DNA from: Planctomycetia bacterium
GTDB taxonomy: Bacteria > Planctomycetota > UBA1135 > UBA2386
Length of the DNA: 58,410 bases
Direction of reading: 5' to 3'
Assembly (NCBI GenBank): GCA_005776475.1
Contig: SXPB01000023.1
Coordinates: forward strand, 1 to 58,410
The notes beneath the pieces were generated by a model, which saw only the letters and a list, made by a program, of their open reading frames with translations, was not told the origin of the DNA and did no database searches. A program made the position numbers and the translations under genes. This document shows, piece by piece, positions 19,267 through 21,781 of this stretch. How positions within the stretch are numbered: the first letter of the stretch is position 1; each line of letters opens with the position of its first letter.

Positions 19267-19297
19267 CGCCACGCACTATGCAGCACCGAGGAGAACC

Positions 19298-20215
19298 ATG
19301 CAGAACCCATCGATGGCTTGGCTCGTAGTCGCGGCGCTGGCAGTCGGTCCGGCCCTTTCGCAGCGACATCCCCATTTCGACGACGCCGGCGCGCTTCTAT
19401 GGCAAACCAAGTTCGCGGCGGCGAAGGCGGCGGCGAAGGAAGCTGACAAGTTGATCTTCGTGGAGTACGGACGCGCCGCTTGAGGCAACTGCCGCGCGCT
19501 CGTGCAGCGCGTGCTCACCGCGGACTCGATCAAGCAGCGCCTCGGCGAGTTGGCAATCGGGTTCGCGGCCGATTGCGACGAGCCCGACGGCAACATCGAC
19601 ATCCTGATCCACGACAATCTTCCGAATGCGAGCACGCTGCCGTTCGTGGCGTTCCTGACGCCGGACGGGCAGTGGGTGTGTGGTGCCAGCGGCTACCAGG
19701 AGATCGACGCGATGCGCGCGTTGCTCGACCAGGCCGCGGCATCGACGCTGATGGATGCCAAGCCCGAAGTGCGGAAGGCGCTCGAGAAGCACGCGGCGGC
19801 GGCTGCGGCGGCGCTGGCCAAGAGCGACTGGAAGCTGGTACTCGCGGCGGCGCGCGAAGCCAAGAAGTCGACGGGCCGTTGCCCCGAACGCAAAACGATC
19901 GTCGAAGCGGAACGCAAGGCGCGCGCCTGGGCCGTTGCCGAGTTCGAGTCGATCGTGCAAGCCGCCAATGCGGGTGGCGAACTGGTCTCGTTGCGCAAGC
20001 GCCTCACTGCGATGAAGGCGCCGTTCGCCGGTGAGCCCGAAGCGCTGGATTGCGATGCGGGCTTGAAGGCGTTGCAGCGGCTGCAGGTCGTGCGCGAGGT
20101 CGAGGCCGGGGGCAATCCGGCGAAGAACCTGCGGCCGCGTTCGGCTGAGCCGTTCAAGGGCACGCGCTGGACGGCGCTGTTCGAACCGCCGGTCGCGCCG
20201 TCGACCGGCAAGTAG
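19298..20215 (+). CDS. Thioredoxin-fold selenoprotein (UGNC motif)
   Basis: A 305-residue exported protein if TGA at 19481-19483 is read as selenocysteine (residue 62). The signal peptide is MAWLVVAALAVGPALS, and GAGGAGA stands three bases before the ATG. The thioredoxin-like segment KLIFVEYGRAA-U-GNCRALVQ places Sec at the first position of a CXXC motif, with Cys65 as partner. Both halves are in one frame with no other start for the second. An 8-bp hairpin (19493-19513) with loop CGTGC begins nine bases after the TGA. The C-terminal part is helical and charged. The likely role is thiol-disulfide redox work outside the cytoplasm. A nonsense mutation at the codon of a redox cysteine is the alternative. 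Confidence 0.8.
19493..19513 (+). promoter_or_regulatory. Candidate bacterial SECIS element
   Basis: Eight consecutive pairs (one G-U) close a five-base loop CGTGC, with G at the second loop position. The loop begins 18 nucleotides after the in-frame TGA. Bacterial SECIS hairpins recognised by SelB lie directly downstream of the UGA, with the apical loop about 16-37 nucleotides away and a G among its first two bases. Position, size and loop all fit. In DNA this rich in G and C, hairpins are common, so the fit supports recoding but does not prove it. Confidence 0.6.
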
Positions 20216-20437: not shown

Positions 20438-21781
20438 TCAGTACTGCGGCCGCAGGTCCTGCAGACGCTTCGCCTTCAATTCGAAGCGCGGCAGCTCGCC
20501 GGTCTTCGCCTGTTCGACGTTGAAGCGCAGTCCCTCGTGCGCATCGGCCAGGTCCTTGCCGAGCTTCGCCTGCAGCCGCGGCCAGCAGTCGCCGGCGTCG
20601 GGCTTCAACTCGACCTTCACGGTGATCTCGTCCTGCACCGAGTCGACGCGCGTGATCACGATCTGGAACTCTTCGACCTCCGCGTGCTCGCGCACGACCG
20701 CTTCGACGGCGCGTGGATACACGTTGGTGCCGCGGATCAGCTTCATGTCGTCGACGCGACCGAGAATGCCGCCTTCGTAGATGTCGCCGGTGCGGCCGCA
20801 GGTGCAGCGCGTGTGCGGCACCTTGCAGACGAGGTCCTTGGTGCGGTAGCGGATCAGCGGGATGAAGCCGCGCCCGAACGACGTCACCACGCGTTCACCG
20901 CGTTGGCCGTAGGCCACCGGGTTGCCTGAGTCGGGGTCGAGCACTTCCTCGATGAAGTGGTCCTCGATGATGTGCGGGCCGCCAGGTTGGTGGTCGCACT
21001 CGAAGATCATGATGGTGCCGATCTCGGTCATGCCGGCGGTGTCGCCGCACTTCCCGCCCCACATGTCCTCGATCATCTTCTTCACCGCGGGGATCGAACC
21101 GGCCGGCTCGCCACTGACGATCACGCGCCGCACCTTGCCGTCCTTCTTCAGGTCGATGCCCATCTTCTCGGCGGTCTGGCCCATGCGCAGCGCGTAGGTC
21201 GGCGTCGCGCACACGACGGTGACGCCCATCTCGACGATCTGCTTCACGCGCTGCTCGGTCGTCATGTTGCCGGACGCCAGCGTCAGGCAACCCATCTTCT
21301 CGCAGCAGTAGTGCGCACCCCAGAAGCCGATGAACGAGCCGTACGAGAACGCGAAGAACACCGTGTCCGTCGGCCGGATGCCGAAGCCCCAGAAGCCGTA
21401 ACACCACATGTCGGCGATCCACGACCAGTCCTTGCGGCTGTCGAGAACGCGCAGCGGTTGCCGGCCCGACGTGCCCGACGTGAGGTGGTAGCGGATCGCA
21501 TCGCTTTGCGGGCGGGTGACGAGATCGCCGAACAGCGGCTTCTCGGCCTGGTTCGCCATCCAATCCTCGCGCGTCATGAACGGCAGGCGACGGATGTCGT
21601 CGAGCGTCTTGATGTGTTCGGGTCGCACTCCCGCCTTGTCGTAGAGCCGGCGATGGAACGGCGAAGTGTGGTAGGCGCGTTCGACCAGCTTCTGCAGCTT
21701 GATCGCCTGCAGGGCGCGCAGATGCTCCTTCGGCAGCGTCTCAGTCTTGGGATTCCAGAACGTCGACTCGGTGGCTGGCAA
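20438..21781 (-). CDS. Phenylacetate-CoA ligase family AMP-forming enzyme
   Basis: A 447-residue member of the PaaK branch of the ANL adenylate-forming family. It has the P-loop-like YHLTSGTSGRQPLRV, the DTAGMTEIGTI adenine-binding block, the IRYRTKDLV segment followed by the cysteine group CTCGRTGDI, and the C-terminal domain LGRVDDMKLIRGTNVYPRAV. The enzyme joins an aromatic or other carboxylate to CoA via an acyl-AMP. None of the usual phenylacetate pathway genes (paaABCDE) is adjacent, so the substrate is open. Confidence 0.92.
   Translation of the reverse strand: MPATESTFWNPKTETLPKEHLRALQAIKLQKLVERAYHTSPFHRRLYDKAGVRPEHIKTLDDIRRLPFMTREDWMANQAEKPLFGDLVTRPQSDAIRYHLTSGTSGRQPLRVLDSRKDWSWIADMWCYGFWGFGIRPTDTVFFAFSYGSFIGFWGAHYCCEKMGCLTLASGNMTTEQRVKQIVEMGVTVVCATPTYALRMGQTAEKMGIDLKKDGKVRRVIVSGEPAGSIPAVKKMIEDMWGGKCGDTAGMTEIGTIMIFECDHQPGGPHIIEDHFIEEVLDPDSGNPVAYGQRGERVVTSFGRGFIPLIRYRTKDLVCKVPHTRCTCGRTGDIYEGGILGRVDDMKLIRGTNVYPRAVEAVVREHAEVEEFQIVITRVDSVQDEITVKVELKPDAGDCWPRLQAKLGKDLADAHEGLRFNVEQAKTGELPRFELKAKRLQDLRPQY

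Follow-up and report, generated by a model that had tools for sequence, protein, structure and literature searches.

A probable new family of thioredoxin-fold selenoproteins in Planctomycetota, with a coding-region SECIS hairpin that covaries in TGA genes only

The window analysed here covers positions 1–58,410 of contig SXPB01000023.1 (forward strand) from the genome of a Planctomycetia bacterium (5.2 Mb in 348 contigs, 75.65% complete). It carries a gene that opens with an ATG at 19298 and ends with a TAG at 20213–20215, interrupted at codon 62 by an in-frame TGA (Table 1). When this TGA is read as selenocysteine (Sec), the 305-residue product features the motif YGRAA-U-GNCRALVQ. The coordinates agree with the initial annotation, which had assigned the TGA to the first cysteine of a CXXC motif in a single frame served by one ribosome-binding site. 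Its further claim that the second half has no start of its own holds only as the lack of a plausible start, because an in-frame GTG is found at 19502, inside the hairpin and devoid of a ribosome-binding site. The gene is preceded by a kelch-repeat gene and followed by an AMP-binding (phenylacetate-CoA-ligase-like) gene. Among the top-scoring in-frame TGAs of the window that have coding-like sequence on both sides, the TGA of codon 62 is the one with a strong (8 bp) hairpin. Note that the minus-strand AMP-binding gene ends in a TGA at 20438–20440, with the next small gene (MTTKTDLLGR...) in the same frame; there is no hairpin at this TGA, which is thus an ordinary stop.

Table 1. Features of the TGA-containing gene and of its predicted product, in window coordinates.
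Feature	Position	Strand	Basis
Predicted selenoprotein gene, 305 codons through TGA, stop TAG	19298..20215	+	End-to-end homology to L017, L018, L019 and L033
Ribosome-binding site GAGGAG	19288..19293	+	Sequence; few bases 5' of ATG
Probable signal peptide, residues 1-22	19298..19363	+	Hydrophobic stretch, judged by eye; also in long homologues
Thioredoxin_7 (PF13899) / thioredoxin-fold domain, residues ~35-140	19400..19717	+	E=7.4e-10, model, fold matches
Predicted Sec-encoding TGA, residue 62, first position of UGNC	19481..19483	+	TGA 49 / Cys 32 in 81 homologues
Cys65, resolving cysteine of UGNC	19490..19492	+	Invariant in 26 aligned members
SECIS hairpin, 8-bp stem, loop CGUGC	19493..19513	+	Covariation in TGA genes only; core counts
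Pro115, thioredoxin cis-proline position	19640..19642	+	Invariant in aligned members; directly before strand 116-120 (model)
C-terminal all-helical domain, residues ~150-295	19745..20182	+	Model; present in long homologues, absent from short

The hairpin begins 9 nt past the TGA and pairs 19493–19500 with 19506–19513 around the loop at 19501–19505, which has G at its second position. The bSECIS rules allow a loop of 3–9 nt, a stem of 4–16 bp, a G in the first two loop positions and a UGA-to-loop distance of 16–37 nt (PMC13188914). All are respected by this element (loop of 5 nt, stem of 8 bp, G second, distance of 17 nt). The Rfam search of the window yields no match, and the folding energy of the hairpin is no better than that of shuffled sequences (z = 0.17). 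The single sequence could thus not prove the hairpin; the comparison of homologues does.

Searches of the planctomycete order and of the phylum provided a set of 81 homologous genes from Planctomycetota genomes. The codon of residue 62, for which either Cys or Sec had been expected in the initial annotation, is TGA in 49 genes and Cys in 32, with no other state. The TGA is shared by homologues with identity down to ~35%. In the taxonomic family of the window's genome, three long homologues and a paralogue from the same genome (47–50% identity) all have TGA at this codon. The paralogue L033 (G000:C262:4107-5015, motif GAKT-U-GRC) is ~48% identical to the window's protein. An initial scan of genome contigs with the window protein as single query gave no match. 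Both states coexist within single genera, namely g37 (L052 Cys, L056 TGA), g60 (L068 TGA, L084 Cys) and g23 (six members), and family f35 is also mixed (L148 Cys; L149 and L150 TGA). The tree requires 17 changes between Sec and Cys, at least four of them forced by well supported branches. Two genes were noted separately. L157 (1–894, minus strand, G414) is a distant long-form TGA member (GREA-U-GNCKAMESRVL) whose hairpin is off the family register; its stem may lie elsewhere. L024 (1501–1854, G022), from a related genome, is a thioredoxin-like read-through candidate (SYSP-U-PPCKALE) that possibly represents a different Sec family.

The hairpin of the TGA genes is found at a fixed distance, with 98.7% of the stem cells paired and compensatory changes on both sides. 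Double changes occupy 44 cells against a shuffled mean of 11.2, and the covariation score is 0.60, compared to 0.21 when shuffled and at most 0.12 when slid. The same columns of the Cys homologues are 71.4% paired, which equals the shuffled mean. The 5-bp core of the stem is complete in 47 of 49 TGA genes versus none of the 32 Cys genes (Fisher 1.5e-20, a value that ignores relatedness); the tree-based test on independent pairs gives three for, none against and one tie, and with only four supported pairs it cannot reach significance. Within the first 36 TGA genes the core is complete in 35, while random synonymous recoding would be expected to give ~13% on average. The serine before Leu/Phe is coded, in 19 of 19 TGA genes, by AGC if the pairing codon is GCT or GCC (Ala) and by TCC if it is GGA (Gly); such codon switching is the clearest sign that the stem is maintained. 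All loops except one are composed of C/G-G-U followed by two bases. The hairpin described in the initial annotation (8 bp, nine bases past the TGA, G second in the loop) is therefore upheld, both by its SECIS geometry and by its covariation.

The genome codes for the complete Sec machinery: a tRNA-Sec (75.5 bits, cut-off 47; anticodon tca according to ARAGORN), a full-length SelB (351.8 bits), SelD (357.7 bits) and SelA, which is split over two contig ends (positions 1–174 on C238 and the remainder on C8, adjoining selD). The finding of selA, selB, selC and selD, with selA in two pieces, supports the initial proposal that the host decodes UGA as Sec. The selD gene (L074, G000:C8:27713-28630) has its own in-frame TGA in the motif SG-U-AAK, which matches the usual UxxK position of Sec in SelD (PMC13188914). 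SelB scores above its curated cut-off in 139 of 154 genomes of the window's planctomycete order, where Sec use is close to universal; its presence is consequently useless for telling Sec from Cys genomes. Three genes near the codon-62 TGA gene have TGA as their stop, which indicates that TGA elsewhere is still a stop.

These data argue that the gene is, almost certainly, a real selenoprotein gene that would direct insertion of Sec at its TGA. That codon 62 is instead a nonsense mutation in an ordinary Cys gene, a pseudogene or a sequencing or assembly error is an idea whose sole support is the existence of Cys homologues, and its probability is close to nil: the TGA is common to the 49 homologues, the frame 3' of it is still conserved and the hairpin covaries in the TGA genes only. 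Reading of the TGA without Sec, by a reassigned code or by a near-cognate tRNA that inserts Trp or Cys, is slightly more plausible since an open frame past the TGA alone leaves the inserted residue unspecified. It is nonetheless very improbable given the three TGA-terminated neighbours, the full Sec machinery, the SECIS-like hairpin that accompanies the TGA and the alternation of TGA with Cys, never with Trp. The conservation of the TGA and of the downstream frame, the covariation of the hairpin and the TGA stops nearby led to the rejection of pseudogene, sequencing error and code reassignment, and the pattern of hairpin and Sec/Cys states in homologues makes a nonsense mutation, a sequencing error or a reassigned code very unlikely.

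The window protein matches PF13899 across both sides of the TGA (residues 35–122, 39.3 bits, cut-off 27), as do all 26 aligned members of the family. PF13098 is matched weakly by 11 of these 26 members and not by the window protein, which also has no match to PF00085 and remains below the cut-off of 27 for DsbH/DUF255 (PF03190, 25.5 bits). The AlphaFold model reaches a pLDDT of 93.7 with 26 family members (82.3 with 5) and features a thioredoxin fold followed by the all-helical domain, which spans residues 156–295 of the model. Sec62 (represented by Cys in the model) immediately precedes the helix of residues 63–72, and Cys65 is found inside that helix. The top fold matches of the first domain are of DsbH type (7tkv), DsbD-gamma and thioredoxins; 7tkv, 1vrs and 1uc7 are the entries for DsbH/DUF255 and DsbD-gamma proteins. 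Long forms (f1, f21, f35) have a signal-like amino terminal stretch and the helical domain. The forms of f2 and f47 have ~130 residues and lack both, while they carry the same active site. This layout suggests an exported branch, which the long form would represent, and a cytosolic branch made of the short form. In the f63 Cys members L158 (220–1230) and L159 (241–1212) the helical domain is replaced by long Cys-rich, Pro/Ala-rich tails.

Several known selenoprotein families share part of this organization. The Trx7/PDZ selenoprotein (NF041199), whose NCBIfam model is the nearest to the window protein (15.8 bits, cut-off 300), also combines a Thioredoxin_7 domain with an active-site Sec, but its motif has the order CxxU and is accompanied by a PDZ domain, whereas the window protein has UxxC and a helical domain. 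The Sec thioredoxin (PF00085) has the thioredoxin fold and UxxC in common with the window protein, whose best Pfam match is however PF13899 and which adds an HPHFDD amino terminal motif and the carboxyl terminal helical domain. The Sec thiol:disulfide interchange protein (PF13098) likewise has UxxC in a related thioredoxin-like domain; it is set apart here by the Pfam matches given above. The TsoB rhodanese/DsbD fusion-like selenoprotein (NF045694) is matched weakly by short homologues at its DsbD-like end (27.3 bits, cut-off 805), but it has rhodanese and membrane parts, and the family described here has neither. The DsbH/DUF255 and DsbD-gamma proteins, which the thioredoxin domain resembles most closely in structure, differ in their carboxyl terminal parts and are not known as selenoproteins.

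None of the NCBIfam selenoprotein models is matched above cut-off by the proteins compared against cut-offs, the remaining hits being weak as well. No row for a PF13899 protein with UxxC is present in the 2026 table, which lists 119 families of prokaryotic selenoproteins (PMC13188914) and whose families without a model were compared through their table entries. The papers retrieved on planctomycete selenoproteomes were general treatments plus a single study, made on other planctomycetes. Selenoproteins of planctomycetes as such are already known (PMC4807772) so that, with no model above cut-off and no table row, the novelty would reside in a new family among known selenoproteins. The genes thus probably define a previously undescribed selenoprotein family present in several families of Planctomycetota, with short, apparently cytosolic and long, apparently exported forms. 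Sec and Cys would switch frequently, even within genera, and the protein stretches encoded by the SECIS arms would coevolve, including in their choice of amino acids, the RNA hairpin constraining the protein solely for as long as TGA is retained at that codon.

In the proposed mechanism, SelB carrying Sec-tRNA(Sec) is predicted to bind the mRNA hairpin, and the ribosome would insert Sec at codon 62 rather than stop. The resulting thioredoxin-fold protein would probably be exported, its active site comprising Sec62, the resolving thiol of Cys65 and Pro115 at the cis-proline position. Its most likely role is to reduce or exchange disulfides of extracytoplasmic proteins in the manner of DsbD-gamma or DsbH, while the helical domain probably binds substrate or a partner; comparison of gene neighbourhoods at the long-form loci revealed no shared partner and hence gave no pointer to substrate. 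The role of envelope thiol-disulfide reductase is assigned with moderate confidence as the most likely function. That the exported long form is a selenoprotein with another main activity, such as a YbbN/CnoX-like chaperone, a peroxidase or a metal/selenium carrier, is possible, if rather unlikely. The thioredoxin plus all-helical layout resembles E. coli YbbN (3qou, E=3.5e-4), and most Sec thioredoxin-fold proteins have no known substrate (PMC13188914). However, the model does not superpose globally on YbbN (rmsd 17), local similarity is highest to DsbH, DsbD-gamma and thioredoxin types, and the short relatives retain the same active site in the absence of the helical domain.

Such TGA genes would be cut short or overlooked by standard gene callers. 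The family extends a list of ~119 prokaryotic selenoprotein families and subfamilies. Its Sec and Cys versions, which are close relatives, offer a natural experiment on the gain and loss of a SECIS within a coding region and on the cost to the protein, and they also bear on what Sec gives to a thioredoxin-fold enzyme.
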